A DNA stretch of 27,582 nucleotides. Source: a virus. The position numbers and the translations under genes were made by a program. The stretch lies in the IMG/VR virus record IMGVR_UViG_3300027788_000058, positions 1 through 27,582 of that record; one strand, given 5' to 3'. Positions 3,074 to 18,786 of the stretch are shown here, one piece after another. Under the pieces are notes generated by a model. It was not told the DNA's origin and did no database searches. It saw only the letters and a program-made list of their open reading frames with translations. Position 1 is the stretch's first letter, and each line of letters opens with the position of its first letter.

Positions 3074-3784
3074 ATGATAAACTCTGTACGTAATACAGTT
3101 TTAGCGATTATAAACAAAAATAACTACGGCTATATATCCCCTTCAGATTTTAACTTGTTCGCAAAGCAAGCTCAGTTAGATTTGTTTGATGAATATTTTG
3201 TTCAATATAATCAACAAATAAACGAAGAAAATTCTAGGGTATCCGGAACAGGATATGCGGACATTAAGAAAGGATACGAAGAAGTTATTGATTACTTTTC
3301 TAAATTTGCTACACTAACACCAAACACAGTAAATGTGTATACTTTGCCAAGTGACTACTATTTAATAAATCAAATATCTTGCTTTACAGGTGGACAACTT
3401 CAGGGAGAAGCTGAAAAGGTAAGTTCTAGTAAAATAAATTTATTAAACAAATCTTTACTTACATCACCTTCTAGTCTTTATCCAGCCTATACTCAATCTG
3501 GAAATTCAATAACTGTATATCCAAATACTTTTGCTGGCGCACAAGATGTTAAGGCAACATATATTAGATATCCTTTAGATCCTAAATGGACTTTTACAAC
3601 CATATCTAATGGAAGCCCTATTTTTGATCAAAGTCAGTCTGATTATCAAGACTTTGAATTGCCTTTAGACGACTCAAATGATTTGGTAGCAAAAATATTA
3701 CAATACGCTGGAATATCAATTAGAGAGGCAGACGTATTTAAGTTTGGGCAGATTGAAGAACAGTCTCAAAATCAACAACAATAG
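3074..3784 (+). CDS. Tail adaptor/ring-type protein
   Basis: 236-residue protein resembling the first ring or head-tail adaptor-type protein encoded ahead of the tail hub in crAss-like and other Bacteroidota podoviruses; the N terminus INSVRNTVLAIINKNNYGYI followed by SPSDFNLFAKQAQLDLF is the part I recognise. Expected role: part of the connector or tubular tail between portal and tail tip. It begins with a helical region (1-55), then has a beta-rich middle (VNVYTLPSDYYLINQISCF, SITVYP, KATYIRYPLDP) and a helical C terminus ending in a Gln/Asn-rich tail. It is first in a tight operon: the next gene starts 2 nt after its stop. Assignment to a particular ring is not possible by eye. Confidence 0.6.
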   Translation: MINSVRNTVLAIINKNNYGYISPSDFNLFAKQAQLDLFDEYFVQYNQQINEENSRVSGTGYADIKKGYEEVIDYFSKFATLTPNTVNVYTLPSDYYLINQISCFTGGQLQGEAEKVSSSKINLLNKSLLTSPSSLYPAYTQSGNSITVYPNTFAGAQDVKATYIRYPLDPKWTFTTISNGSPIFDQSQSDYQDFELPLDDSNDLVAKILQYAGISIREADVFKFGQIEEQSQNQQQ

Positions 3785-3786
3785 CT

Positions 3787-4710
3787 ATGGCATATATAAA
3801 TCAAAAAAAGTATTATACCAACGACGGCAACAACCCTACTGACTCTAACTGGGGTTCGTACCAGTACGTTAGCTTAGACGATATAGTCACAAATTTCTTG
3901 TTGATGTACGATGGAAACCATTCCTTAGTTAATAACGAGAATAGATATAAAATATTGTTTCACGCAAAGCGTGGAATTCAAGAATTAAATTACGACGCAT
4001 TTAAAGAAATAAAATCTTTAGAGCTTACAGTCTTTGATGATCTTAAATTTGTATTACCTTCTGACTATGTCAACTGGGTTAAGCTGTCGCTATTTAAAGA
4101 CGGTGTAGTGAGAGATCTCACCGAAAACATACAAGTTCAGTCTGCAGTGTCTTATATTCAAACAGCGAGCTCTACGTTTACCTATGATAACGATGGTGTT
4201 ACTGTTAAAGAAGAAACCTCTAGCATAGACACCAAGCGATTAGACGGAAGTTTGCAGAGTATATACTTAAATGACGTTGTTGATGAAAATATTGATCCAA
4301 ACGTTAATAACTACGATTCAGATATTAACAACTCTAGGATCGGAGCTAGGTATGGTTTAAATACAGAAACAGCAAACATTAATCCTACGTTTACAATAGA
4401 TAAAAAATCCGGAGTAATAAACTTTGATTCTACTATGGCAAACCAAAGCTGTATTCTGCAGTATATATCTGATGGTATGGAAAACGGGAATGATTCTTTA
4501 ATTACTCTTAATAAAATGTTTGAAGAGTATATTTACGCTTACATAAGTTATGCTGTTTTAAATAGCAAGTTTGGAGTTCAAGAATATATTATAAATAGAG
4601 CTAGAAAAGATAAAGCAGCTTTATTAAGAAATGCAAAAATTAGATTAAGCAATATTCACCCAAGTAGACTCTTAATGAGCATGAGGGGGCAGAACAAGTG
4701 GATAAAATAA
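3787..4710 (+). CDS. Tail tubular/ring protein
   Basis: 307-residue protein that I recognise as the partner usually encoded just before the large stabilisation protein in crAss-like and related phages. The signature area is about residues 20-105: YVSLDDIVTNFLLMY, HAKRGIQELNYDAFKEIKSL, LKFVLPSDYVNWVKLSLFKDG. Such proteins are thought to form a ring of the short tail or connector, similar in role to podoviral tail tubular A or P22 gp4. The middle (110-215) is a variable, Asp/Asn-rich insertion, and the C terminus (225-307) is helical and ends in basic residues. It starts 2 nt after the upstream stop and ends 1 nt before the next ATG, so the three tail genes are one translational block. Confidence 0.65.
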   Translation: MAYINQKKYYTNDGNNPTDSNWGSYQYVSLDDIVTNFLLMYDGNHSLVNNENRYKILFHAKRGIQELNYDAFKEIKSLELTVFDDLKFVLPSDYVNWVKLSLFKDGVVRDLTENIQVQSAVSYIQTASSTFTYDNDGVTVKEETSSIDTKRLDGSLQSIYLNDVVDENIDPNVNNYDSDINNSRIGARYGLNTETANINPTFTIDKKSGVINFDSTMANQSCILQYISDGMENGNDSLITLNKMFEEYIYAYISYAVLNSKFGVQEYIINRARKDKAALLRNAKIRLSNIHPSRLLMSMRGQNKWIK

Positions 4711-4711
4711 A

Positions 4712-7700
4712 ATGGCAAAAACTCAAAGAAATTTTGTTAAAGGGCGGATGAACAAAAGCCTTGATGAAAGGCTTCTACCTAATGGTGAATATGAAGACGC
4801 ATTAAATGTAAGGCTAGGCTCTACAGAAGACTCTGAGATTGGCACTGTTGAAAACTCAAAGGGAAACACTCAGCTTACAGCGTTAATTTATAAAGATGAA
4901 ATTAGATTAAGCGCAGAAGCAAAGACCATAGGAGCTTATGAGGATGGCGCTAATGAGACTATATATTGGTTTGTTCATGACCCAGCTTTTACTTCAGGAG
5001 AAACTGGTAGATTAGATTTAATTGTTTCTTTTAACACTACAACCGGAAGAGCAACCTATCACGTTGTTAGTATAGATGACGGAAGTGGTATAGTTACAAC
5101 TCTTAACTTCGATCCAAAATATTTAATAACAGGAGTAAATTTAGTTGGAGATTTATTATTTTTTACAGACAACTTGAATCCTCCTAGGTTTATAAATGTT
5201 AGAAGAAACTATCCAATTCCTGACGCTTCTAATGTAGATGGTTTTACAGCTGAAAGTATTTTGGTTATAAAGAAACCACCAATAGCTGCTCCAACAATAG
5301 CTCCTTTTATTCAAGATTCAGAGAATGATTTTTTAGAGGATAAATTTATTTGTTTTGCTTATCGCTATGAATATCAAAACGGACAGTTTTCTGCAGTATC
5401 TCAGTTTAGTGACCCAGCTTTTTTATCTAAAACTTTTTCTTTTAGTTACAATACTTTTCTTAACGAAGGGATGACTAATTCTGCAAATGCTGTTTCAATA
5501 ACGTACAACACGGGAGGCCCTTTAGTTGTTGGGATTGAATTGTTATTTAAAGAAATGAATGATCCTACTATTAAAGTTATAGAAAGGATTAATAAAGAAG
5601 AGGTGGGGTTTCAAGATAATAATGATCAGGTATACGTCTTTGACAATCAAAAAATATTTACTGTACTTCCTGAATATGAAATACTAAGGCTTTACGATAA
5701 CGTCCCTAGAAGCGCTAAGGCTCAGACCTTAATGGGAAACAGGCTTATATACGGGAACTACGTAGAGGGTTATGATTTAAAAGATAGACTTGGAGCTTCT
5801 TTAAATCTTTCTTTCCAAGCTGATTTAATAGGATCAGAGATAAATTTAAATGTTGTTCCTGATTTAGAAGCAGATGGGTTTTATAATTTTAGTGGCGTAA
5901 ATCCTTTAACTATACCTGGATCTATATTTCGTATAGATTTGTCAGATTATAATAATAAAGAATCTTTAGTAAAAGGAGCTGGTGTTTCTTTTGAATTTCA
6001 GTTTGAGCACTCTACTTTTGATAGCGTTAGTTTTAACGCTCCTATTCCTGATGCTACAACTACACTTACTCAGATATCTTTTACCTACACATTGCCTCAA
6101 GATTTTACTTCAGTACATCAAATGGCAACTAGTAATGACTTTGTTGCAAGAATCGGTAGTTCTGCAACAATAAAAACTGTTGATTTAGCCTGCGACGGAA
6201 CTACTCTTACAGATCAAATGAACTGTTTAATACCTACTAACTTAGGCTCTTATGTAAAAGTAGGCAGTGGTATAACAGAAACAGATCAACCTATTATGAT
6301 TACTTCAGATCCAAACACTGGGGTAATAGGATTTCAACTTATAGCTATGGTTTTTAGAGACCCAACAGGTCCTAAGTTTATAAATGAATACTATACTATA
6401 GTAAGCGGAGGAGCTGCATATCAAAAAATAGCAAATGCATTTAGCCTTCACAGCAACAGGGGTTATGAAGTGGGGATGGTTTATATGGATGATTTTAACA
6501 GGTCTTCTACAGCTTTGGTTAGTCCTGAAAATACTATTCATATTCCTTGCGGAAATTCTCTTTTACAGAACTCGATACAAGTTACAATACCTGGTGCATC
6601 TCCCGCTCAGATAGCTCCTGATTGGGCTACAAGATATAAATTTGTTATTAAGCCAAGCAAGGGTACGTATGAAACTATTTATGCAAATGAATTCTATAAT
6701 GATCCTATTGATAATTATGTTTTCTTTCTTTTAGAAGGAGAAAACGCTAATAAAGTTGAGTCAGGGGATAGATTGATTGTAAAAAGAGATTCTGCAGGAC
6801 CAAGATCTAATTGCACTTATACTACAGTTTTAGAAAAAGAAGCTAAGGCTGCTAATTTTTTAACTATTGAAAACCCATTAAACCCTGGACAGGACCCTCA
6901 GGATAATATTCCTATTCAATCTGGGGTCTACATGAAGCTTAGTCCTAGTAACTTTATAGCTAACAACAATGAGACACCTGGAGGAGATATTTTTCAACCA
7001 GGGAAGCTTGTTGCAAGGGGTCAAAAAAATAACTCAAACCCAGGTTCATTTGCTTTAAATGCTTATCCTGTTAACATAATTAATCCCACAGGAAGTGGTG
7101 CTACTTCTTATGTAGATGTTACAGTTCCTGCAGGAAGTTCTTCTACAATGTCTATGAGGTTTGCAAGAAATAGAGCTAATTTCTGGGGCAGAGCTTGTGA
7201 TGGTAGAGAATATATTTTAAACATTGAAAATAGAGCTCAGGGTGATTATGATGATTTTAAAGAGTATTGGGATGGAGAAAACTTATCTTCTTTACTTGAC
7301 TCTGGTGTTTCTTCATTTTCGAATGTCCGACAAGAAGAATCTCCGTTTATTAATACATACATCTCTACGTTACTTACACAAGCTAGAGATCCTTTAAAAT
7401 CTGATTTTCCGACAAATACTAGTAATAATATTTGGCAATTTTTTAGAAACAGCGCTACTAATCAGTTGTTTCTATGTATGGTTGGAGGACCAGGTTGTAG
7501 CGACGGAGACGGCAGTAGATTTCACGTAGAGGTAGATATTGTTGTAGATAGATCAGACGGAACTATTGTTTTTGAAACTATACCTACTGATGCTTTGCCA
7601 GATGTGTGGTATGAAAATGATTTATCTTTTCCTATTGACAATTTAGGTCAGCATACCGGTGACGTTCAAAATCAAATAATTAATTTTGAAAACACGGGAG

Positions 7701-10162
7701 CAACAGCAACTCAAGATGCAATAATAAACACAGGATTTTACGACTGTATTTCTTTTGGAAATGGCGTTGAGAGTTATAAGATGAGGGATTCTATTGACGG
7801 TAAAGCTTTAACTTACGGAAACAGGGTGACAAGCACATCGGCTCAATTATACAAAGAAGCTAATAGATTCGCAGATTTAACTTATAGCGGAATATTTAAT
7901 GATGAATCTAATGTTAATAGATTAAATGAATTTAACTTAGGTTTATTAAACTTTAAACCACTAGAGGAGTCTTACGGTCCTATAGAAAAACTAGACAGCA
8001 GACGCACAGACATGCTAGTATTGCAAGAAGATAAAATATCTTATGTGCTAGTAGGGAAAGACCTTTTATCTGATGCTTCTGGGGGAGGAGCATTAACTTC
8101 TATTCCACAAGTTTTAGGAACTCAAATTGCTAGATCTGAAGAATATGGAATTAGCAACAACCCAGAAAGTTATACAAGATACGGAGTAGATAGGTTTTTT
8201 ACAGACCAAAAAAGAGGAGCTGTGCTTCAACTTAGAGGTGGAAGCGCTCAAAGTGATCAGCTTAAAATTATTTCTCAATTCGGAATGAGGAGTTGGTTTA
8301 GAGACTTTTTTATTGACACTGTTTCAAATCAAAAATTAGGAGGTTTTGATCCTTACATGAATGAATATGTGTTGGCTTCAACGGGTCAAAGTTTAGCGCC
8401 TATAGAAATCCCTTGTTTAGCTGGAGGATCTGTTGAAAACATAACGATTACTCCAGGTGAAGAGATAACTTATTGTGTTGATGTGGGTCAAGACATTGGA
8501 ATTGTTGATGTAGACTTTACAATTCCCCCAGGTAATTCTGGTAATGAATATACGATTGACGCTTTGTACAATGGATCTAGAGTGTCTAGTGGAAGACGCG
8601 CTTCTAGCGGCAGAATAAGTCTTTCTAAAAGTCAAACTGATCCATCTGAAGTTACTATAATAGCATCAACAACAGCAACAAGTCCTGATACGATACAAAT
8701 TGAAGTAAGTGAGGCTCAACAAAAACCATTGAACCTATACAATGTAGCATTAACAAGTAGTGGAGAAGCTGGAGAGTTTATTCACAATCAATACGCTTGG
8801 ACTAACGGAGCATTTAGTTCTCCTCTTCATTCAAATTTAGTTTCAATTGGAAACGATCCTACGAATCCTTCCGTATCTCAATATACAAAAGTAAGTGGTT
8901 TTCAGGGAGGCGGAATAGTTCCTAGTGAAGGAGCTACGGTTACCATGATAAGTAACAATATTGGATCAGATAATTTTGCTTTTAATCCTTCTAATAATAG
9001 TTTTAAATATCTTAGGACACCAGTTTTATATACAAACAGCGCTAAAGACGCTCTTGCTTTAAGAGCAGCGGCTAACTCCGCTACGCCTACAGTTGTTACT
9101 CCTGGAAACCCTAACAGATACTCTGCTGACTTTATAATGCCAGGTGGATCTGATAATGATAATCTTTATTTACTTTGGGATTACAGAAACGCTACTTCAG
9201 CTGTTCTTTGTCAAGAAGACACATTAAGAGATGCGTGTTGTGTTTGCGAAATTAATCCTAGTAAAAATTGTGGAGAAGGGGTGGCTTACTCTGGCGTTTC
9301 TCAATATCCTTCTACTACAATAATAAATTTAGGATCAGACATAGGAAGTGTTTCTTTACAATTTAATGCATCAGATTCTCCTGACAGATTTACAGTAGAG
9401 TTCGATGGAGCTGTTGTAATAGACACTGGATACAGAGGAAACACAAGTTATCAAGGTGAATTAAATAGTGCTTTAGCTGCTTTAGGTCAGCCATTAGCTA
9501 GAATAACTCCACCAGATAGTGGTGTGGTTTCGTTTACAAAGTCTAATGCATTTCCTACTGCAATATTAAAAGTTTATTCTCCTTTAAATCCTGCAGCTTG
9601 GACTGCTATAGTTAGTTGTGTTAGTGCAGTAACGCCTGTTCCTACGGCTACGCCGACTCCAACGCCCACAGCATTACCAATAACCCCTACACCGACGGCA
9701 GCTACGCCAACTCCTACAGCTACTCCTGCGGGACAAACTCCAACTCCAACTCCCGTACCAACAGCGACTCCTACGGTTACCCCAGCTACACCGACGCCGA
9801 GTCCTACAGCTGCTACTCCCGTACCGGCTACACCTACACCAACGGCGGTGCCCGTAACACCGACTCCAACCGGAACACCAATGCCTACTTTATATTATGT
9901 AGAGCGTAGTGCATCACCAGGAGTTTGTGGGGACTTTACGGGTGGTGTATACTGGTGGCCTGATCCATTAGGATATTTAACAGGTACATCAGAGGCTAAT
10001 GATATAGCTCCTAGTGGAACTCAGATATATGCAGGTTCTAATTATCAAGTTTGGTCTGGTACAGCTGGAACTTATGCAGTACTTGAACCTAATACTGGTG
10101 CTGACTTTACTCAAGATATAAGTAGTACGGGAATTGTGGGTACTGATGATTCCTGTTTTTAA
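4712..10162 (+). CDS. Large tail stabilisation/hub protein with Thr-Pro stalk
   Basis: 1816-residue tail protein. Its N terminus (RNFVKGRMNKSLDERLLPNG, then YEDALNVRLGSTEDSEIGTVEN) is the hallmark I recall for the large stabilisation or tail tubular/hub proteins of crAss-like and related podoviruses. The conserved core appears to run to about residue 1240, ending with a GGFDPYMNEYVLAS segment. Added modules follow: a beta module from about 1245, a Cys-containing linker (DACCVCEINPSKNC), a beta-sandwich-like module near 1523-1640 (FTVEFDGAVVIDTGY), a Thr-Pro stalk at 1641-1726 and a terminal 90-residue domain (LYYVERSASPG to DDSCF). That domain is duplicated at the end of the next protein. The C-terminal arm may project from the virion to contact the host or other tail proteins; this is inference. 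Confidence 0.72.
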   Translation: MAKTQRNFVKGRMNKSLDERLLPNGEYEDALNVRLGSTEDSEIGTVENSKGNTQLTALIYKDEIRLSAEAKTIGAYEDGANETIYWFVHDPAFTSGETGRLDLIVSFNTTTGRATYHVVSIDDGSGIVTTLNFDPKYLITGVNLVGDLLFFTDNLNPPRFINVRRNYPIPDASNVDGFTAESILVIKKPPIAAPTIAPFIQDSENDFLEDKFICFAYRYEYQNGQFSAVSQFSDPAFLSKTFSFSYNTFLNEGMTNSANAVSITYNTGGPLVVGIELLFKEMNDPTIKVIERINKEEVGFQDNNDQVYVFDNQKIFTVLPEYEILRLYDNVPRSAKAQTLMGNRLIYGNYVEGYDLKDRLGASLNLSFQADLIGSEINLNVVPDLEADGFYNFSGVNPLTIPGSIFRIDLSDYNNKESLVKGAGVSFEFQFEHSTFDSVSFNAPIPDATTTLTQISFTYTLPQDFTSVHQMATSNDFVARIGSSATIKTVDLACDGTTLTDQMNCLIPTNLGSYVKVGSGITETDQPIMITSDPNTGVIGFQLIAMVFRDPTGPKFINEYYTIVSGGAAYQKIANAFSLHSNRGYEVGMVYMDDFNRSSTALVSPENTIHIPCGNSLLQNSIQVTIPGASPAQIAPDWATRYKFVIKPSKGTYETIYANEFYNDPIDNYVFFLLEGENANKVESGDRLIVKRDSAGPRSNCTYTTVLEKEAKAANFLTIENPLNPGQDPQDNIPIQSGVYMKLSPSNFIANNNETPGGDIFQPGKLVARGQKNNSNPGSFALNAYPVNIINPTGSGATSYVDVTVPAGSSSTMSMRFARNRANFWGRACDGREYILNIENRAQGDYDDFKEYWDGENLSSLLDSGVSSFSNVRQEESPFINTYISTLLTQARDPLKSDFPTNTSNNIWQFFRNSATNQLFLCMVGGPGCSDGDGSRFHVEVDIVVDRSDGTIVFETIPTDALPDVWYENDLSFPIDNLGQHTGDVQNQIINFENTGATATQDAIINTGFYDCISFGNGVESYKMRDSIDGKALTYGNRVTSTSAQLYKEANRFADLTYSGIFNDESNVNRLNEFNLGLLNFKPLEESYGPIEKLDSRRTDMLVLQEDKISYVLVGKDLLSDASGGGALTSIPQVLGTQIARSEEYGISNNPESYTRYGVDRFFTDQKRGAVLQLRGGSAQSDQLKIISQFGMRSWFRDFFIDTVSNQKLGGFDPYMNEYVLASTGQSLAPIEIPCLAGGSVENITITPGEEITYCVDVGQDIGIVDVDFTIPPGNSGNEYTIDALYNGSRVSSGRRASSGRISLSKSQTDPSEVTIIASTTATSPDTIQIEVSEAQQKPLNLYNVALTSSGEAGEFIHNQYAWTNGAFSSPLHSNLVSIGNDPTNPSVSQYTKVSGFQGGGIVPSEGATVTMISNNIGSDNFAFNPSNNSFKYLRTPVLYTNSAKDALALRAAANSATPTVVTPGNPNRYSADFIMPGGSDNDNLYLLWDYRNATSAVLCQEDTLRDACCVCEINPSKNCGEGVAYSGVSQYPSTTIINLGSDIGSVSLQFNASDSPDRFTVEFDGAVVIDTGYRGNTSYQGELNSALAALGQPLARITPPDSGVVSFTKSNAFPTAILKVYSPLNPAAWTAIVSCVSAVTPVPTATPTPTPTALPITPTPTAATPTPTATPAGQTPTPTPVPTATPTVTPATPTPSPTAATPVPATPTPTAVPVTPTPTGTPMPTLYYVERSASPGVCGDFTGGVYWWPDPLGYLTGTSEANDIAPSGTQIYAGSNYQVWSGTAGTYAVLEPNTGADFTQDISSTGIVGTDDSCF
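9632..9889 (+). repeat. Thr-Pro repeat stalk, 86 codons
   Basis: In-frame run of Thr-Pro-rich codons (ACN CCN with interspersed GCN and GTN) encoding residues 1641-1726 of the large tail protein. Synonymous codons are well mixed, so exact DNA repeats are short. It joins a beta module to the terminal domain. Confidence 0.9.
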
Positions 10163-10235: not shown

Positions 10236-13200
10236 ATGGGACGAGGAACTTTTTATTTTGATGCAGCTACTTTTGAGAATGCTGTTGCGGTTTTCACTAA
10301 CAGTGGCTTAACTAATTGCGCTCCAGATGGATATTATTCTGACGGAACAAACGTTCGTCGTCAAGTAAATTGTGTTTTATTGGCTTTAGAAGCTTGTCCA
10401 GATTGTACAGCTGAAACACCCACACCAACAGCTACTCCGACACAAACACCTACTCCCACAGCTGCAACGCCTACCCCTACAGTAACTTTTGCAACACCCA
10501 CCCCCACAGCTGCAACGCCAACTCCTACAGCTGCAACACCGAGTCCAGTACCTCCAACACCGACTCCTACGTCAGTGCCTTCAGGATTCTATTATGAGTT
10601 AGAGCCTTGCTTAACACCAGGTGGTGTAGTTGTAGACGCATGTTATATATACGAAACATCATCTCCACTAGCATATCAGCAATATTTAAATTCCAATAAT
10701 GGTCTTTACTATTACTATAACATTGATACGTCTTCAGTTATTATAACTGTTCAAGCTGTAGCAGCTGGTAATAGATATTTTGTAGATGGTACACAGCAAT
10801 CTAATATTAATTTAATACCAGGGGCAACTTATTTAATTGATCAAAGCAACGCTTCAAACGACGGTCATCCTCTTATATTAAGCACTACAACGCCATCGCA
10901 AACAGAATATTCTACAGGAGTAGTTTATTTATTAGATAATGTGGTTACTACATATGCAAATTACACAAACACAACTATTTTTAATGCCGCAACTACAAGG
11001 CAGTTAAGAGTAACGCTTGAACTAACAGCGCCTAGTTTATATTATGTATGTGCTATACATCAAAACATGGGTGCAGATATTTCGCGTAACGCTGGCTTAA
11101 TAAGCGTTGATCAAGATTTAGTTTGCACTGGAAACATGGAATTAAACCCTGGTGTTATAAACTGTCCTCCAGTTTCTGAAACAACAAAATACAGTCTTCA
11201 GGATTGTGATACTTTGCTTAACAATTTCTACAGTGAAACTACTCAAAACTTTGTTGTCGGATCTAGAGTAAAAGACGACCTTACAAGCAATGTTTTTAAC
11301 GTAACTGGTATAATTACAGACACTTCTGGACTTGGAAACGTGGGAAGTATAACTTGTTTGGATTCAAATAATTTAACGCCTGACGATATTGGATTTACTT
11401 TTTGCACAACTGGATGTCCTCCCGCTATAACAGCTACGCCTACGCCTACTGCTGTTACTCCTACTCCTACCGTAACTCCAACTGCGACAGTAACACCAAC
11501 GCCCACAGGGACGCCTTTAACTCCGACACCCACTCCAACATCTTCGGCGGCAACTCCGACACCAACACCTACCGTAACTCCGACACCCACGCAAACAGGA
11601 ACACCGACTCCTACTCCAACGGTAACGGCTGCTACACCAACCCCTACAGGAACTCCTACGGCTACCCCTACACCTACACCGACAAGCACACCTACGCAGA
11701 CCCCTACAGGAACTCCTACAGCTACACCGACTGGTACACCAACACCTACCGCAACATCAGCCACACCTACACCGACAGTTACGGCCACGCCTACCCCAAC
11801 GGGGACACCTACTGCTACACCTACGGTAACGCCTACGGTTTATGCTTTAAACCATGCTTTACCTCAATCATCTAAAGGTGCGTCTTGTGGAACAGTGTCA
11901 GATCAAGGGATACTATACACAACTAGAAATAGAGGAGTTGATATTGAAGTAGGGGATACAATATATGCTAATTCTTCACTTACTATAACTTTTAATGGAG
12001 GGAATAATTACTATGGAGTTGCTACATCAACAGGAAATGTTACGGAACAGGAAATAAGAATTCAGACAAATGGCTTAGTGGTAGAGTCAGAGTCTTGCGT
12101 GTTCCCAACGGCTACGCCGACATCTACTCCTACCCCGACAGTTACTCCTATAACACCTACACCTACCGCTACCCCTGCGCCTACCGCAACACCTACATTA
12201 ACCCCCGCGACTCAGACACCTACGGCTACAGCTGTTAGACCAACGCCTGTTCCTACGGCTACTCCAACGGTAACAGCTGCTACGCCTGTACCAACAGCGA
12301 CTCCAACACCTACCGCTACTCCTACGGTTACCCCAGTTACACCTACACCCACACCAACGGGGACACCGACCGCAACACCTACCGCAACCGCAACACCTAC
12401 TGCAACACCAGTCACTCCTACTCCTACGGCTACACCTACCGCAACCGCAACGCCGACTGCAACACCAGTCACTCCTACTCCTACTGCAACTCCAACTGCA
12501 ACGGCCACGCCTACTGCCACACCTACTGCTACCGCTACAGGGACTCCTACTCCGACTCCTGATGGACCAACACCAACACCGACTGCCACACCAACAGTTA
12601 CCCCCGTAACACCAACACCAACTGCTACGCCTACGGCCACACCAACAGTTACCCCTGTAACACCAACACCGGTAACGCCTACTCCTGTAACGCCAACTGC
12701 AACAGCGACAGCTACTCCGACTGCAACTCCGACTGCTACGCCAACACAGACTCCTACACAAACACCAGCCACCCCAACTCCGACAGCTACGCCTACGGCT
12801 ACGCCAACGCAGACTCCTACACAGACTCCAACGGCTACGCCTACGGCTACGCCAACACAAACGCCTGCTACGCCGACGCCTACAGCTACTCCAACGCAGA
12901 CTCCAACGCAGACGCCTACAGCCACGCCTCCAACGCCTACGCCTGCTACACCGACGCCTACTGCTACGCCTCCAACGCCTACGCCTGCTACACCGACGCC
13001 TACTGCTACGCCTACACAGACGCCTACACAAACGCCTACACAAACGCCAACGCAGACGCCTACACAGACGCCAACGGCTACGCCGACTCCAACGCCTACG
13101 GCTACGCCACTGCCCAACTTGTACTACGTAGAGAGAAGTTCTTCTCCAGGTAGCTGTGGTGATTTGCAAAATTCTACTTACTACTGGGCAGATCCAACAG

Positions 13201-13394
13201 CTGCAGGGCTTAGACCAAATGGATCTATTGCTGAATTTATTGCACCTTCAGGAACTCAGGTATATGCAGATGCTAATTACGGTTCTTATTATTCAACAGG
13301 TGGAACTTATTCAATAACTCAGCCATCAACGGGTGATGACTATGAGCAGCCTATAACTAATGTAGGAATTGTTGGTTCTGACAGCTCATGTTAG
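10236..13394 (+). CDS. Modular tail fibre/adhesin-like protein with Thr-Pro stalks
   Basis: 1052-residue modular protein, probably virion-attached and surface-exposed. Order: residues 1-60, a small Cys-containing domain (GTFYFDAATFENAVAVFTNS, CPDC); 61-115, Thr-Pro linker 1; about 116-300, a cupredoxin-like module with candidate copper ligands His211 (NDGHPL) and Cys272, His275, Met278 (YYVCAIHQNMGA, the C-x2-H-x2-M spacing of amicyanin); about 310-398, a Cys-rich module of unknown role; 399-535, linker 2; 536-623, a small beta module (VDIEVGDTIYANSSLTITF); 624-960, linker 3; 961-1052, a terminal domain about half identical to the end of the preceding tail protein. About 529 residues are Thr-Pro repeat. 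No signal peptide is visible, as expected for a virion protein. Its own promoter core precedes it, and two glycosyltransferase genes follow. Confidence 0.7.
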   Translation: MGRGTFYFDAATFENAVAVFTNSGLTNCAPDGYYSDGTNVRRQVNCVLLALEACPDCTAETPTPTATPTQTPTPTAATPTPTVTFATPTPTAATPTPTAATPSPVPPTPTPTSVPSGFYYELEPCLTPGGVVVDACYIYETSSPLAYQQYLNSNNGLYYYYNIDTSSVIITVQAVAAGNRYFVDGTQQSNINLIPGATYLIDQSNASNDGHPLILSTTTPSQTEYSTGVVYLLDNVVTTYANYTNTTIFNAATTRQLRVTLELTAPSLYYVCAIHQNMGADISRNAGLISVDQDLVCTGNMELNPGVINCPPVSETTKYSLQDCDTLLNNFYSETTQNFVVGSRVKDDLTSNVFNVTGIITDTSGLGNVGSITCLDSNNLTPDDIGFTFCTTGCPPAITATPTPTAVTPTPTVTPTATVTPTPTGTPLTPTPTPTSSAATPTPTPTVTPTPTQTGTPTPTPTVTAATPTPTGTPTATPTPTPTSTPTQTPTGTPTATPTGTPTPTATSATPTPTVTATPTPTGTPTATPTVTPTVYALNHALPQSSKGASCGTVSDQGILYTTRNRGVDIEVGDTIYANSSLTITFNGGNNYYGVATSTGNVTEQEIRIQTNGLVVESESCVFPTATPTSTPTPTVTPITPTPTATPAPTATPTLTPATQTPTATAVRPTPVPTATPTVTAATPVPTATPTPTATPTVTPVTPTPTPTGTPTATPTATATPTATPVTPTPTATPTATATPTATPVTPTPTATPTATATPTATPTATATGTPTPTPDGPTPTPTATPTVTPVTPTPTATPTATPTVTPVTPTPVTPTPVTPTATATATPTATPTATPTQTPTQTPATPTPTATPTATPTQTPTQTPTATPTATPTQTPATPTPTATPTQTPTQTPTATPPTPTPATPTPTATPPTPTPATPTPTATPTQTPTQTPTQTPTQTPTQTPTATPTPTPTATPLPNLYYVERSSSPGSCGDLQNSTYYWADPTAAGLRPNGSIAEFIAPSGTQVYADANYGSYYSTGGTYSITQPSTGDDYEQPITNVGIVGSDSSC
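10416..10580 (+). repeat. Thr-Pro linker 1, 55 codons
   Basis: In-frame Thr-Pro-rich repeat encoding residues 61-115, with several imperfect copies of a CCTACAGCTGCAACGCC-like unit near 10460-10550. It separates the N-terminal domain from the cupredoxin-like module. Confidence 0.88.
11430..11840 (+). repeat. Thr-Pro linker 2, 137 codons
   Basis: In-frame Thr-Pro-rich repeat encoding residues 399-535. Codons are synonymously mixed, with short exact repeats such as CCCCTACAGGAACTCCTAC near 11640 and 11700. Gly residues (PTGTPT) are more frequent here than in the other linkers. Confidence 0.88.
12375..12488 (+). repeat. 57-bp tandem duplication inside linker 3
   Basis: Two adjacent 57-bp copies (12375-12431 and 12432-12488) differ at four bases by eye and encode the same 19 residues, TPTATATPTATPVTPTPTA. 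A further pair with a 51-bp offset begins at 12585 and 12636, with about 35 nt nearly identical. Confidence 0.8.
12924..13013 (+). repeat. 42-bp perfect tandem repeat inside linker 3
   Basis: Bases 12924-12971 and 12966-13013 are identical with a period of 42 bp (14 codons, unit TPPTPTPATPTPTA). Perfect identity at the DNA level marks this as a very recent in-frame duplication. Confidence 0.85.
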
Positions 13395-13446: not shown

Positions 13447-14676
13447 TTGGAAACTATTTTTGTACAAATTGCGAGCTATCGTGATCCAGAACTATTACCC
13501 ACAATAAAAGATTTACTGTTAAAAGCTGATAACCCTGACGCTCTAACTATATGTATTGCCCATCAGCATAGTAAAGAAGATGAGTGGGATACGTTAGAGA
13601 AATACGCTAATGACGGAAGGTTTATAATAATAGATATTCCACACGAAGAGTCTAATGGAGCGTGTTGGGCTAGGAATCAAATTCAACAACATTACGATAA
13701 TCAAACGTATACACTACAGCTAGATTCTCACCATAGATTTGTAGACGGATGGGATACCATCTCTATAGATATGCTAAAGTCTTTACAAAAAAAAGGACAC
13801 CCTAAGCCTTTGTTGACAGGGTACATACCTTCTTATGATCCAACCAACGATCCTAAGGGAAGGCATGATAAACCTTGGGGTATGTCTTTTGATAGGTTTA
13901 CACCAGAGGGCGTGGTTTTCTTTATGCCTTATCATATGGATAACAGCGTAAAAGAACCCGTTTTAGCTAGGTTTTATTCAGCCCACTTTGCATTTACCTT
14001 AGGGGAGTTTTGTAACGAGGTTCAGCATGACCCTTCTTTTTACTTTCACGGAGAAGAGATTACTATAGGTGTTAGAGCATTTACTTGTGGATATGATTTG
14101 TTTCATCCGCATGTAATTATTGCTTGGCATGAATACACTAGAGAAGGTAGGACTAAACATTGGGACGATAGTTCTGATTGGGGAAAAAGAAATACTAGGA
14201 CTCACAAAAAAACTAGACAACTGCTAGGTATTGATGGCGAGATTTGTTCTCCTTGTAATAAAAAATCTTTTGTCGGATACGATATAGGATCAGACAGAAG
14301 TGTAAATGACTATGAGATTTACTCAGGTATTAGATTTAAAGATAGAGCTATTACTAACAGTTGTACAAAAAACTTATTACCTCCTGGAGATAAAGACCAA
14401 GAGTATATGCCAAAGTTTAAGCACGCCATAGATTTAAATAAAAGTTTGTTTCCAGAAAGAGATTATGACTTCGTGGTATTAGCTTTTGAAGACAAAAATG
14501 GAGAGGCTATACATAGAAGAGATATAACTAAGGATGAGATAGCATCTCATTTAAAGGCCTCTAGCGAGTCTTTTACGGTATGGAGAGAGTATAATGGACC
14601 TAGACCCTATCAATGGGTCATGTGGCCTTACAGCGCCTCTAAGGGGTGGACAGATAGAAAGGTTGTTGTTTTATGA
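13447..14676 (+). CDS. GlcNAc-transferase family glycosyltransferase (PF11397-like)
   Basis: 409-residue cytoplasmic glycosyltransferase of the GT-A type, resembling the GlcNAc family (PF11397; eukaryotic members in CAZy GT60). Seen: N-terminal IFVQIASYRDPELLPTIKDL, a metal/nucleotide-binding DxH motif Asp93-Ser-His95 (LQLDSHHRFVDGWD), and HGEEITIGVRAFTCGYDLF near 200-220. A C-terminal beta module (about 325-409) ends VWREYNGPRPYQWVMWPYS, as in bacterial members I recall. Characterised Dictyostelium relatives attach GlcNAc to protein Thr or to Skp1 hydroxyproline. Start: TTG at 13447 is chosen because the in-frame TAA at 13429-13431 excludes an upstream ATG and the conserved strand begins at residue 3. 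It overlaps the next gene by ATGA. The substrate is unproven; the adjacent Thr-Pro proteins are the obvious candidates. Confidence 0.78.
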   Translation: METIFVQIASYRDPELLPTIKDLLLKADNPDALTICIAHQHSKEDEWDTLEKYANDGRFIIIDIPHEESNGACWARNQIQQHYDNQTYTLQLDSHHRFVDGWDTISIDMLKSLQKKGHPKPLLTGYIPSYDPTNDPKGRHDKPWGMSFDRFTPEGVVFFMPYHMDNSVKEPVLARFYSAHFAFTLGEFCNEVQHDPSFYFHGEEITIGVRAFTCGYDLFHPHVIIAWHEYTREGRTKHWDDSSDWGKRNTRTHKKTRQLLGIDGEICSPCNKKSFVGYDIGSDRSVNDYEIYSGIRFKDRAITNSCTKNLLPPGDKDQEYMPKFKHAIDLNKSLFPERDYDFVVLAFEDKNGEAIHRRDITKDEIASHLKASSESFTVWREYNGPRPYQWVMWPYSASKGWTDRKVVVL

Positions 14677-16967
14677 TACCAAAGATTATACATCAAACTT
14701 TTGAAACAAAGTTTACTCCTCCAGGAATGTCTAGAGCTAGAGGAAGTTGGTCTGCTAATAATCCAGAGTATGTATATAAGTTCTACGAAGCTACAGATAG
14801 GATAGATTTTATTAAAAATAATTTTCCTGTTAGCGTATTAAAAGCTTATCACGATATAATACCAGGGGCATTTAAAGCCGATTTATTTAGATACTGTGTT
14901 TTATATATAGAGGGAGGGGTTTATGCAGATTCCGACACCACATGTCTTACACCTTTAGATGAATACATAAATAAAGACACTAGCCTTTTAGTAGTTAGGG
15001 ATGACCCTATGGCAAAGAAGTGGTTGGCAAATGCATTTATAGCAACCAAAGCGGGAGAGGGTATATTTTTAGACGCCATAAACAGATGTGTAGAGAATAT
15101 AAAGAGCAGAAAGGAAATGTTTTATTTAGACTATACAGGCCCTGGCCTTCTAGGCAAGTGTGTAAATAGAAGATTAAACAGAGAAATTGAAACGGAATAT
15201 GAGTTAGGAAGTCAAGATGTAAATGGCTTAAAATTTAAAATATTAAAGCACGACTTTACAAGCACTGAATTTAAATACAATGACAAGCCCGTTATACACG
15301 TAGAATATCCTACCTACAGGGAGGAGATGAAAGAGCTAAACAATAAACCTTTCTATCATTACGTTCAAAACAATATTATATTTAAAAAGATTCCAAATAA
15401 AATAATCTACACCACTTATGACGCTCTAGATGTAAACAGCTACATGGTGGATTCTTTCACTAAATTAAATCCTGAATATGATTTAGTTTACTTCAATCAA
15501 CAAAAAGTAGATGAGTGGTTTAAAAAAAGCATATACAACGAAGCTTATTTAAAACTAAAAGAACGCGGTGAAAAATCAGACTTCTTTAGATATTGTTATT
15601 TATGGGAGAATGGCGGAGTGTATGTAGATGCAGATATATATTGCAATCAACCTTTAAGGAATTGGATTAACCATCAAGACCTTATAGTTGGCTTAGAAGC
15701 AGAAACAGATTCTGAAGACCCTATGTTTAAAGGTATAGGAATTAAAGTAGGAAACAAAATGTTAAGCGTTTGTAACTGGGCAATTGCCTCAGCACCAAAA
15801 CAACAACCTATTGGTCGTTTAATTGATGACATAATAAACAATCCAACCTCTGGAGTTTTACAGAATACAGGCCCTGGAAGATTTACAAAACATATCATAA
15901 ATTATTTTGGAGACAAAAGGTCTATTGATAACTGTATGTTATTACCTATCAACGCTTTAGGATCTAATCAATCTCATAGCGGATCGTTTAAAAGCAACAG
16001 GCCGTTTGAAGTAGATAGAGAAGATGTTTATTTAACACATATGTTTGCGGGTAGCTGGAGAGGGAATCAGAAAAGAAAATCAATTAATCTAATTCCAAAA
16101 GAAGTAAAGCCATCGGTAAGCCACAACATAACAATTTCAAAAAATAAAGATGGATACATTGGTGTTGCTAGGTATGACATAGACACAGCTAGGACTGAGT
16201 TTATGAAAAAACTCGGAAGCTCCACTACTTTGTTAGAGTACAAATTTGACAAAAGGTTTAACGTTGTTTCAAAAGAAATAAAAAATATACAAGGAGCAAA
16301 TCAATCTTATAAATTTGAAGACTATAGAGAATTTAAATATAAAGGCACAAGCTATTATTGCGTAGCATATTTAGATAAAAAATTCAACACCTACATGGGA
16401 GTTTTAGATTCTGAATATAATTTCCTAGGAAGAATAAACATCGACCGAAACCATAAGATGAGTTTTGGTATAGGTGGTGTGGTGGCTTGGGAGAAAAATT
16501 GGTTGTTCTTTGAAAAAGAAAACGAACTTTACTTTATCTACTCTACAACTCCAAACTTAATAATTTATAAATGTAAAGATTTTAACTCATTATCTTTCCA
16601 GGTTTACAGTAACACTCCAAACGTTTATGAATCAGCACTACCTAAAGATCAACTTTACTTTTCATCAAACACTTCTACGGGAGGATCTACTAATCCTATA
16701 TATGATTCACAAAATAACTGCTATGTATATTTAATTCACACAAAAATATATAAAGAAAGAGGCTACAATCATTTTGCAGTTTCTCTAGACAAAGACTTAA
16801 ATATAATGAACATAAATCCTATTCCATTTATAGGATACAAGATTGGATATGCTTTGATGTTTATAACTACAATGATTGAAAACAAAGATCATTACGTTAT
16901 TTGCGGAGGAATAGAAGACAATCAAAACTTTATCTGGGAGATACCTAAGTCTAGACTATCCATTTAA
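14673..16967 (+). CDS. GT32-GT32-propeller fusion glycosyltransferase
   Basis: 764-residue three-part enzyme. Part 1 (about 1-225) is a GT32/OCH1-type domain (PF04488-like): IPKIIHQTF start, AFKADLFRYCVLYIEGGVYA and DxD at Asp86-Ser-Asp88. Part 2 (about 238-475) is a second GT32-type domain: IPNKIIYTTYDALD, GEKSDFFRYCYLWENGGVYV and DxD at Asp319-Ala-Asp321. Part 3 (about 485-764) looks like the beta-propeller of GH130-like proteins often fused to glycosyltransferases: an ED-x-R motif at 549-552, KNWLFFEKENELYFIYSTTP and a terminal ICGGIEDNQNFIWEI. Both DxD motifs are intact, so two sugar transfers are plausible; propeller catalysis is uncertain. It overlaps the upstream enzyme by 4 nt (ATGA), implying coupled translation and one pathway, perhaps extending a first sugar. 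Confidence 0.8.
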   Translation: MIPKIIHQTFETKFTPPGMSRARGSWSANNPEYVYKFYEATDRIDFIKNNFPVSVLKAYHDIIPGAFKADLFRYCVLYIEGGVYADSDTTCLTPLDEYINKDTSLLVVRDDPMAKKWLANAFIATKAGEGIFLDAINRCVENIKSRKEMFYLDYTGPGLLGKCVNRRLNREIETEYELGSQDVNGLKFKILKHDFTSTEFKYNDKPVIHVEYPTYREEMKELNNKPFYHYVQNNIIFKKIPNKIIYTTYDALDVNSYMVDSFTKLNPEYDLVYFNQQKVDEWFKKSIYNEAYLKLKERGEKSDFFRYCYLWENGGVYVDADIYCNQPLRNWINHQDLIVGLEAETDSEDPMFKGIGIKVGNKMLSVCNWAIASAPKQQPIGRLIDDIINNPTSGVLQNTGPGRFTKHIINYFGDKRSIDNCMLLPINALGSNQSHSGSFKSNRPFEVDREDVYLTHMFAGSWRGNQKRKSINLIPKEVKPSVSHNITISKNKDGYIGVARYDIDTARTEFMKKLGSSTTLLEYKFDKRFNVVSKEIKNIQGANQSYKFEDYREFKYKGTSYYCVAYLDKKFNTYMGVLDSEYNFLGRINIDRNHKMSFGIGGVVAWEKNWLFFEKENELYFIYSTTPNLIIYKCKDFNSLSFQVYSNTPNVYESALPKDQLYFSSNTSTGGSTNPIYDSQNNCYVYLIHTKIYKERGYNHFAVSLDKDLNIMNINPIPFIGYKIGYALMFITTMIENKDHYVICGGIEDNQNFIWEIPKSRLSI

Positions 16968-17012: not shown

Positions 17013-18353
17013 ATGAGTTACTTCAAATGCGGCACTAGAGCAAACTCTGGAAATTTTGGTTTTGAAACATACAGAGGAGGGGATAATGTAACTTACAGGA
17101 TTGCTTCAAAAAAAACTATAAACATCCCTTACAACCTAGAACAAGTTGTAGGAACTATAGAGGCCGAGCAGTATGGAGGTCAGAATAGTGTCCTTGCAAT
17201 GGGGGTGGTTTTAAACAGCCAAGGATCTGAAGTTTTTAGATTTTACCCACAACAAGCCGGGGTTACTACCGATGCTTACAACACAATTGAAACGGTAACT
17301 GATGACAGTGCAGATGCAGAAATTCCTGCAGGAGACTATACGGTAATGAACTTTCAGTTAGTAGATGGCTTCAACACTTTCGGAACTTCTATAATATGTA
17401 TTTCAGGAGAAGAACAAGTTCCTGTTACTCCTGTACCTGAGACCCCTGTTCCAACACCCGAACCAACAACCCCTCCTACTCCGACTCCAGCCACTCCTAC
17501 TCCAAGTCCTACACCAGTTCCTACGGCTACGCCTATACCATTTAATCCTGTGCCGTCATTAATACTTCCTTTAGGACCTCAGTACACTTTGTCTTATAGC
17601 GAAGGGTCAGAAGGATGGCCATCTTTTTATTCATATAGTCCTGATTACATGGTTGGTATGAATAATTATTTTTATTCTTTTTCTGGAGGTAACATATATA
17701 GACACAATACAAACGAGATTAGAAATAACTATTATGGAGTTCAATACGACTCCTCCATAACCACAGTTATGAATGAATCTCCTTTTGACAATAAAATATT
17801 TAAAACTTTAAGCTTAGAATCTGATCAAGCCTGGAGAGCAACTATAACAACAGACATGAACGATCAAGCCTTTATCAACTCAACTTGGTTTGAACAAAAA
17901 GAAGGCGCTTGGTATGCAGCAATAAAAAACACCACTCAAGCTCCTACAGTTATAGACAACTTTAATGACAGGTCTATAAACGGAATAGGAAGATGTCTTT
18001 CTTGGTCTGGATCTTTAAATACAGGAGTTACCTTTTCATTCTCTGCAGAAACATATATTGATTCTATAATCAGCATAGGTGATTTCTTGTATTTTAATAA
18101 TGAATCCAACAATACCCCAGGGCTTGTAGGAAAGATTACAAGTATAACATCCAATCAGATAATTGCAGTTGGTAATATAACAGGATCTAACTTACCTACA
18201 ACTATAAATCCATTAATGATCGCTGTTAAAAATAACACTGCAGAATCTCATGGAGTTTTAGGCCACTATGCAACCATTCAGCTAGAACACACAGGGTCTG
18301 CTCCAACTGAGTTGTTCGCAATAGAGTCGCAGGTTATGAAAAGCTATCCTTAA
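17013..18353 (+). CDS. Tail-associated protein with Thr-Pro linker and hub-like module
   Basis: 446-residue probable virion protein. Residues 1-136 form a beta-rich domain I do not recognise (MSYFKCGTRANSGNFGFETY onward); 137-176 is a Thr-Pro linker. The region from about 195 to 310 (SEGSEGWPSFYSYSPDYMVG, FYSFSGGNIYRHN, YYGVQYD, FKTLSLESDQAW, FEQKEGAWYAAI) strongly recalls a module that in crAss-like and marine Bacteroidota phages sits within or at the end of the large stabilisation protein. Here it is on a separate gene, three genes downstream. Residues 310-446 are beta-rich (LSWSGSLNTGVTFSFSAET, LGHYATIQLEHT). It probably joins the tail and may complement the 1816-residue hub. It has its own promoter core. 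Confidence 0.65.
   Translation: MSYFKCGTRANSGNFGFETYRGGDNVTYRIASKKTINIPYNLEQVVGTIEAEQYGGQNSVLAMGVVLNSQGSEVFRFYPQQAGVTTDAYNTIETVTDDSADAEIPAGDYTVMNFQLVDGFNTFGTSIICISGEEQVPVTPVPETPVPTPEPTTPPTPTPATPTPSPTPVPTATPIPFNPVPSLILPLGPQYTLSYSEGSEGWPSFYSYSPDYMVGMNNYFYSFSGGNIYRHNTNEIRNNYYGVQYDSSITTVMNESPFDNKIFKTLSLESDQAWRATITTDMNDQAFINSTWFEQKEGAWYAAIKNTTQAPTVIDNFNDRSINGIGRCLSWSGSLNTGVTFSFSAETYIDSIISIGDFLYFNNESNNTPGLVGKITSITSNQIIAVGNITGSNLPTTINPLMIAVKNNTAESHGVLGHYATIQLEHTGSAPTELFAIESQVMKSYP
17421..17540 (+). repeat. Short Thr-Pro linker, 40 codons
   Basis: In-frame Thr-Pro-rich run encoding residues 137-176, with Glu residues (PETPVPTPEPTTPP) not seen in the other linkers. It separates an unknown N-terminal domain from the hub-like module. 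Confidence 0.85.
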
Positions 18354-18375: not shown

Positions 18376-18786
18376 ATGGAATTTAATATAAGAAAGCTTC
18401 AATCCTCTGACTATGAGGATACTTTATTTGGTTGGTGGAAAGACTGGGGATGGGAAGCTCCACTCAAAGACTTTCTTCCAGATGACGGAAAGGGTGGACT
18501 TATAGTATTAGATGAAGATGTCCCTGTATGTGCAGGGTTTATATACGTAACAAATTCTAAAGTAGCCTGGGTGGATTGGATTATTTCTAATAAAAATTAC
18601 AGAGAGAAGTCTAAAAGACAACAGGCTATTGATTTATTAATAGAGAGCCTTACAAACGTATGCAAGGCTAATGGAAATAAGTACACATACGCTCTGATAA
18701 AACACAAGGGACTTATAGAGGTGTATAAAAAAAACGGATATACAATTGGAGAAAACTACACTCAAGAAATGATTAAAGTATTATAA
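18376..18786 (+). CDS. GNAT-like N-acetyltransferase
   Basis: 136-residue protein with the layout of a GNAT acetyltransferase: N-terminal strand MEFNIRKLQSSDYED, a WWKDWGWEAPLKDFLPDDG segment, paired beta strands (GLIVLDEDVPVCAGFIYVT, KVAWVDWIISN), a helix after YREKSKRQQAIDLLIESL where acetyl-CoA normally binds, and the C-terminal GLIEVYKKNGYTIGE pattern. The classical Q/R-x-x-G-x-G/A loop is not well preserved (REKSKRQQA). Similar small acetyltransferases occur in structural regions of marine and crAss-like phages as I recall them. The substrate is unknown: an amino sugar, a virion protein or a host target are all possible. It starts a long operon with 1-nt spacing to the next gene, so it is co-expressed with the ejection proteins. 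Confidence 0.68.
   Translation: MEFNIRKLQSSDYEDTLFGWWKDWGWEAPLKDFLPDDGKGGLIVLDEDVPVCAGFIYVTNSKVAWVDWIISNKNYREKSKRQQAIDLLIESLTNVCKANGNKYTYALIKHKGLIEVYKKNGYTIGENYTQEMIKVL

Follow-up and report, generated by a model that had tools for sequence, protein, structure and literature searches.

Introduction

The muzzle of crAss-type phages, a T7-nozzle-like hexamer located at the tip of the tail, is believed to act as the gate through which DNA and proteins are ejected. The solved example, gp44 of phi-crAss001 (PDB 7qok, 7qol and 8ckb; PF25731 plus PF25729), is one chain of 1371 residues with its C-terminal module at 1244-1333, and is named ‘stabilization protein’ in GenBank records. It is described as comprising a ring-joining domain and a seven-bladed propeller like that of T7 (PMC10172136). 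The C-terminal domain of the T7 nozzle is described as a platform that binds the adaptor, with three strands provided by the first 45 residues (PMC6702177). The nozzles of T7, SU10 and phi-crAss001 are each formed from one chain (PMC6702177, PMC9509320, PMC10172136).

The closest one-chain relatives of the DNA studied here are found in Cellulophaga phage phi38:1 (gp097), the Flavobacterium elemo phages and Tenacibaculum phage Gundel_1. The whole module can be aligned with theirs, which is fused shortly after the core. In Cellulophaga phages phi19:3 and phi13:2, the module is a separate gene (gp120 plus gp121). Phi19:3 gp121 is labelled ‘structural protein’ on the strength of a note in its record that mentions similarity to phi8:3. 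Among the papers listed by searches of the open-access literature, none concerns a split tail nozzle or a split muzzle.

Here we analyze an IMG/VR virus record of 27,582 nucleotides from a marine phage, hereafter the window (the whole stretch of DNA at its full length), in which the core and the module of a putative muzzle are encoded far apart. A preliminary description of this DNA had proposed that a tail-hub protein was broken up by the insertion of fibre and glycosyltransferase genes. We consider it likely, instead, that the separate module gene re-forms the muzzle with the hub in the virion, and that the gap between the two genes became a site for fibres and enzymes.

Results

The genes and segments that bear on this question are listed below.

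3074..3784, plus strand: predicted structural protein of the virion, the first in a pair of ring-type genes that precede the hub (phrog_14543, E 5.9e-46)
3787..4710, plus strand: predicted virion structural protein directly upstream of the hub (phrog_13977, E 1.5e-44)
4712..8398, plus strand: putative hub/muzzle core, hub residues 1-1229 (phrog_14478, weak PF25731, hhalign, joint alignment)
8399..9202, plus strand: hub C-terminal extension, residues ~1230-1497, its first part a predicted jelly-roll sandwich (profiles, model)
9203..10162, plus strand: extra hub module, Thr-Pro stalk and knob, the knob being residues 1721-1816 (sequence; knob match)
10236..13394, plus strand: putative Thr-Pro-rich stalked fibre ending in a hub-type knob (sequence, knob match, slot-gene profile)
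13447..14676, plus strand: predicted GT60-type glycosyltransferase (PF11397, E 1.1e-68)
14673..16967, plus strand: predicted DXD-type sugar transferase, Gly_transf_sug (PF04488, E 1.2e-28)
17013..17423, plus strand: N-terminal beta-sandwich of the module protein, residues 1-137 (predicted model)
17424..17579, plus strand: Thr-Pro linker, residues ~138-189 (sequence)
17580..18350, plus strand: putative muzzle C-terminal module, residues 190-446 (profiles; crAss_MUZ_C at 17718-17930)
18376..18786, plus strand: small conserved gene adjoining the module (relative in MW202828 annotated as N-terminal acetyltransferase complex subunit)

The ORF at 17013-18353 encodes 446 residues, arranged as an N-terminal domain, a Thr-Pro linker and the module. 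PF25729 (crAss_MUZ_C) matches residues 236-306 with E 1.9e-17 and 63.9 bits, above the curated Pfam cut-off of 27 bits. Among PHROGs, phrog_38031 covers residues 6-446 (E 6.5e-136) and phrog_18548, a 241-residue family of bare modules, also matches. Two further matches fall in the late parts of very large virion-protein families, at positions 1550-1642 of 1783 in phrog_15100 and 2065-2148 of 2289 in phrog_37948. A profile of 34 separate modules matches the C-termini of the fused muzzles of phi38:1 (1078-1323), elemo (1260-1492), Gundel (1157-1382) and Fpv3 (1729-1821), and gives E values of 9.5e-13 for phi4:1 and 2.8e-11 for phi-crAss001. Judged by these homologies, residues 190-446 are the C-terminal segment of a crAss-type muzzle (‘stabilisation’) protein. 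The preliminary description had likened residues of about 195-310, behind their own Thr-Pro linker, to the large stabilisation proteins. The strings that it quoted are present in the ORF and both the likeness and the linker are borne out, with the module running on beyond the proposed range to residue 446.

Predicted structures were examined for this protein. The N-terminal domain is predicted to fold (pLDDT ~79-93 per block). The module alone is not (pLDDT <50 over 177-269, 282-322, 408-419 and 430-446), a result that shallow alignments could also cause, the propeller part of the hub being modelled poorly too. The VIA list for model residues 202-443 includes the solved muzzle gp44 (7qok_A, chain range 23-1371) at rank 47, with 123 residues aligned, 17% identity, rmsd 4.3 and a Z of 6.1, below the value of 8 under which a match may mean only a common arrangement. 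Foldseek searches with the 446-residue model gave no PDB match at E 0.001 or better, and the top matches in BFVD are without names (best E 5.4e-20, 42% identity, 270 residues). Likewise, phmmer searches of PDB sequences with the module protein and with the hub gave no match at E 0.001, the weak ones listed being largely Thr-Pro-rich or unrelated chains. The N-terminal domain has a best VIA Z of 7.8, without a clear relative; in ten loci (L009-L013, L015-L019) it has a gene to itself, 174-176 residues long, immediately ahead of a bare module. Some of the chains listed for this domain are also found, at higher Z, for the jelly roll of the hub.

The 1816-residue hub matches phrog_14478 over residues 6-1497 (E 6.4e-227). 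PF25731 (crAss_MUZ) is weak in it, covering residues 4-352 only at 28.5 bits against a cut-off of 27. The hub has the same place behind the ring gene as phi-crAss001 gp44, whose core is homologous to the hub and whose module is homologous to residues 190-446 of the module protein. By gene order, 3787..4710 stands where phi-crAss001 has its ring 1 / tail tubular gene; the name ‘ring’ is given to the upstream genes by analogy, from position and synteny with that phage. On family membership, the hub is taken to be the main body of a crAss-type muzzle. The 34-module profile detected no module copy in the hub, its best domain there having an i-E of 0.068 and a score of -1.2, and none in the 42 other hubs of the same set. 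The preliminary description had named a module still present within the 1816-residue protein as a result that would overturn it, and this search did not give that result. Core and module are thus not on one chain in the window: they are separate genes, with 6850 bp from the hub stop to the module gene. This agrees with the preliminary description, which had placed the module about 6.9 kb downstream of the hub and given the hub additional modules and a stalk at its end; extra modules, a Thr-Pro stalk and a knob are indeed found there. A paralogue of the module retained in the hub was considered and ruled out, given that the module profile finds none.

The chain is cut at one place, after the last conserved strand of the hub (window hub ~1229). 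When three fused muzzles were aligned with hubs by hhalign, the alignment ended at profile position 1211 of 1468. In a joint alignment, the window hub pairs with fused muzzles to residue ~1229 and then continues into other sequence, and the fused muzzles pass straight into the module after the equivalent point. As measured by profiles, core and module are separated by 2-16 residues in fused proteins (10 rows, with no value obtained for an eleventh, the broken Panino locus L049), while split hubs have 105-1258 residues beyond the core end. Separate module ORFs mostly begin 3-12 residues before the module. In the sequence pattern, a strand with NEYVL at its end precedes the cut and TLxYSE follows it; judged by this pattern, the cut would fall in a turn between two strands of one propeller blade.

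The hub beyond the cut carries an extension that is shared among split relatives. When hub residues 1234-1497 were made into a profile that left out phi19:3, the extension was recognised in phi19:3 (E 1.9e-30) as well as in phi13:2; elemo, Gundel, phi38:1, phi-crAss001, phi14:2 and cr10_1 gave no match above threshold. A homologous extension is present in the hub ORF of 108 of the 110 split loci compared to none of the 10 fused. In the split locus L123, it is detected only weakly and in a neighbouring ORF. L133 is split without a homologous extension. In it, ~700 other residues follow the core, and its sister is a fused locus, which suggests a second split that took place independently. A programmed frameshift was also considered as the source of the module and ruled out, since the module ORF begins at a start of its own and the hub, for its part, runs into the conserved extension. 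Phi19:3 gp121 matches positions 1123-1377 of phrog_14478, which suggests that this family mixes fused and split members.

The extension model mostly has a pLDDT of 76-94 per block. Its first part, hub ~1233-1337 (window ~8408-8722), is a predicted jelly roll of ~100 residues that is similar in structure to the SIDT extracellular domain and to GOLD and pre-peptidase C-terminal domains (VIA Z up to 12.7 for residues ~1235-1336, rmsd 2.1). A Foldseek search with the hub-segment model returned eight matches at E 0.001 or better, seven of them to the SIDT extracellular domain, which we read only as a common jelly roll. Among the VIA matches listed for this segment there is no nozzle, the propeller part being modelled poorly there.

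Separate hub and module genes are the usual, and probably a long-standing, state in this marine family. A first set of 47 loci, made up of the window, phi19:3, MW202828 and 44 IMG/VR loci, contains no fused form; the upstream hub is in view in 45, all of which keep the order of hub then module on one strand. A wider set kept 80 loci of at least 520 relatives, with profiles used to tell split loci from fused ones. Before counting, we set aside four contigs as duplicates (L097, L115, L137, L077) and five loci as distant references (L050, L053, L054, L055, L057). The resulting 127 loci of the large marine family comprise 110 split, 10 fused and 7 not classifiable because the hub is not in view, a count in which near-identical copies are retained (e.g. 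L040-L044, L080/L081). Among the dropped references, a wide profile reads L057 as fused and finds the module inside ORFs of 2289 and 1961 amino acids in L053 and L054; it missed L050 and L055. Unsplit relatives, which the preliminary description had envisaged, exist in the one-chain forms of phi38:1, elemo, Gundel and phi-crAss001.

The distance between the two genes varies with what lies between them. They are at most 25 bp apart or overlap in 20 of the 110 split loci, including phi19:3 and phi13:2 (3 bp). Many other split loci have one slot gene, as we call the genes between hub and module, and no glycosyltransferase. With one slot gene the distance is 484-1341 bp in the first set; with a fibre and GT60 it is 2.4-3.6 kb, reaching 4.7 kb in L004 and L005, and in L045 one large gene accounts for 2.8 kb. 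The 6850 bp of the window is the largest distance among the 110 split loci. Phi19:3 and phi13:2 resemble the window in having a separate module gene and a hub with homologous extension, but differ in having no linker, no added N-terminal domain and no slot genes. Phi-crAss001 has neither the C-terminal hub extension nor slot genes. Most separate modules are without an added domain.

A second cut is present in some relatives. In 19 loci (L002-L020), out of 104 split loci where this could be counted, the hub is itself two ORFs, cut at the equivalent of window-hub residue ~172. Stop and restart fall within a few bases of each other (e.g. 1810-2844 and 2848-7344 in L002). The first hub piece carries 157-190 extra residues, which form a conserved domain that is absent from the rest of the set. 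As a result, the muzzle of these relatives would need three chains.

Other interruptions of muzzle genes were seen in single sequences. In the public sequence of Maribacter phage Panino (L049 17500-18100) the muzzle genes are interrupted; in our own reading of the record, as opposed to a computed result, its fused-type muzzle is two ORFs with a frame change between them. The muzzle gene of L081 is broken where that of the near-equal L080 is whole, and the L020 hub has an extra break at 4557-4558. These breaks may be real or may be sequencing errors.

The slot of the window contains a fibre gene and two transferase genes. The fibre gene matches the ordinary slot-gene profile (E 3.6e-9) and appears to be a Thr-Pro-expanded member of the usual slot-gene family. 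The knob of the hub (window 9872-10159) is homologous to that of the fibre (~13104-13391; E 1e-27), and both stand behind Thr-Pro stalks. In the gene at 13447-14676, PF11397 scores 232.8 bits against a Pfam cut-off of 21; we take this family to correspond to GT60. The product may be a putative GlcNAc transferase to a protein acceptor. GT60 includes enzymes that act on hydroxyproline or threonine.

Across 136 loci, the four duplicates included, enzymes of the slot are associated with Thr-Pro-rich stretches. GT60 is present in 23 of these loci, all of which have such a stretch, compared to 9 of the 113 loci without GT60. Several of these GT60-less exceptions have in the slot a 2OG-Fe(II) oxygenase, a radical SAM/SPASM protein, an O-fucosyltransferase or a carbamoyltransferase; this 2OG oxygenase family includes prolyl hydroxylases. 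With all enzymes counted, Thr-Pro stretches are found in 30/30 enzyme loci versus 2/106 others (threshold 16 of 30 residues), a count that is biased in that the 2OG, radical SAM, O-fucosyl- and carbamoyltransferase queries were found inside Thr-Pro loci. At a threshold of 18, the figures are 27/30 and 0/106. The 30 enzyme loci are clustered on the tree (three changes, with L114 on a distant branch), and Fisher values for the association therefore overstate the evidence. As a control, 46 distinct slot ORFs (of 62, from 86 split enzyme-less loci) were compared with Pfam; no enzyme family was found among them, and there was one weak HYR-like match.

Wherever hub and module are both in view, the enzyme ORFs lie between them (29/29). 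Slots with enzymes, GT32-type included, are at 13447-16967 in the window and in L002-L020, L033-L035, L114, L126, L129, L136, L151 and others. The slot enzymes probably modify the Thr-Pro stalks. None of the papers listed by our searches of the open-access literature concerns such stalk modification.

Discussion

We propose that a one-chain muzzle was cut at one place, such that the hub would have gained a new C-terminal domain and a stop and the rest of the muzzle would have restarted as a separate gene. The two chains would then most likely reunite non-covalently in the virion. The presumed architecture is the seven-bladed propeller plus platform of the T7 gp12 and SU10 nozzles, as these are described in the literature; these nozzles differ in being one chain. 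By analogy with the T7 platform, the separate protein should supply in trans the remaining strands of the last propeller blade, together with the ring-joining (platform) part that would dock the muzzle on the tail barrel. The poor predicted folding of the lone module fits a fragment that needs a partner, although shallow alignment could also explain it. The freed hub end would carry display domains. The gap between the genes would subsequently have been used by stalked fibre proteins and by enzymes whose probable role is to modify those stalks.

A broader reading is held more tentatively, and we judge it slightly more doubtful than probable. A T7-like muzzle propeller would be built from two separate chains, or three in 19 sampled relatives, each cut falling at a propeller loop and each new end bearing an added domain (at hub ~1230, and the 157-190 residues at ~172). 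The slot would hold stalked adhesins and exchangeable enzymes that hydroxylate, glycosylate or otherwise modify the Thr-Pro stalks made by the phage itself, resembling a phage-made mucin.

Conceivably, the module has left the muzzle altogether and now serves only as an anchor displaying its N-terminal domain or the fibres, while the hub closes without it. In favour of such a role, the module of the window and those of its close relatives bear an additional N-terminal domain, attached through a Thr-Pro linker, and the hub C-terminus has gained new domains. We nevertheless regard this as unlikely: most separate modules have no added domain, the hub contains no further copy of the segment, and the segment retains the full length and pattern of the nearest fused muzzles.

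The direction of change was addressed with trees. One of hub end plus module, for which 124 rows were cut to 77 by likeness, was rooted on phi-crAss001 and phi14:2. In it, fused rows are near the base and 65 split rows form one clade (99/98), phi19:3 and L082 stand apart and L133 is beside the fused L127, giving three changes. A single clade of all extension-bearing split rows is not rejected (AU p 0.107). A quick hub-core tree nests fused rows among split ones, with very long branches. The TerL tree needs two changes (one clade, AU p 0.053). In a concatenated tree, phi19:3 groups with the fused Gundel (SH-aLRT 99), so that at least two changes are needed. These last three trees do not settle the direction. 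The window is without terminase and portal genes, and in Crassvirales-rooted trees the terminases of its relatives are outside Crassvirales by construction of the root.

It seems a shade less probable than the anchor role that the separate state is ancestral in the marine family, with one-chain forms produced by later fusion and loss of the extension. The extension is common to phi19:3 and the window family, which suggests a single origin or an exchange of the region; as phi19:3 groups with the fused Gundel, an old split with re-fusions would account for it, and the nesting in the quick hub tree points the same way. However, phi-crAss001, phi4:1 and Fpv3 are one-chain, the more careful 77-row tree has fused rows near its base, and one clade of extension-bearing split rows is compatible with the data. 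The one-chain muzzle is probably the ancestral form; this is the better reading also because the nozzles of T7 and SU10, as well as that of phi-crAss001, are one chain.

It is very improbable that incoming fibre and glycosyltransferase genes broke a one-chain hub gene, as first proposed for this DNA. In the window, a fibre and two transferases do lie in the 6850 bp that separates the two parts. However, the genes overlap or are at most 25 bp apart in 20 of the 110 split loci, and further split loci have a single slot gene without any transferase. The hub runs past the end of one-chain homology into an extension common to split relatives, and split relatives without any insert already refute insertion as a general cause. 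The slot was already there when the fibre and glycosyltransferase genes arrived.

If the muzzle is re-formed from two chains, a propeller closed by a second chain would mean that an ejection gate can be assembled non-covalently. It would also suggest how tail tips gain displayed domains, namely by cutting a loop, extending one end and restarting the other. The split provides a natural split point for structural work on the cultured phages phi19:3 and phi13:2. In addition, the link between Thr-Pro stalks and enzymes yields a clear and testable prediction, the chemical modification of phage tail proteins.

The small gene kept beside the module (18376-18786, ~136 residues) has phmmer relatives in 48 loci, and also one on the opposite strand in phi19:3.
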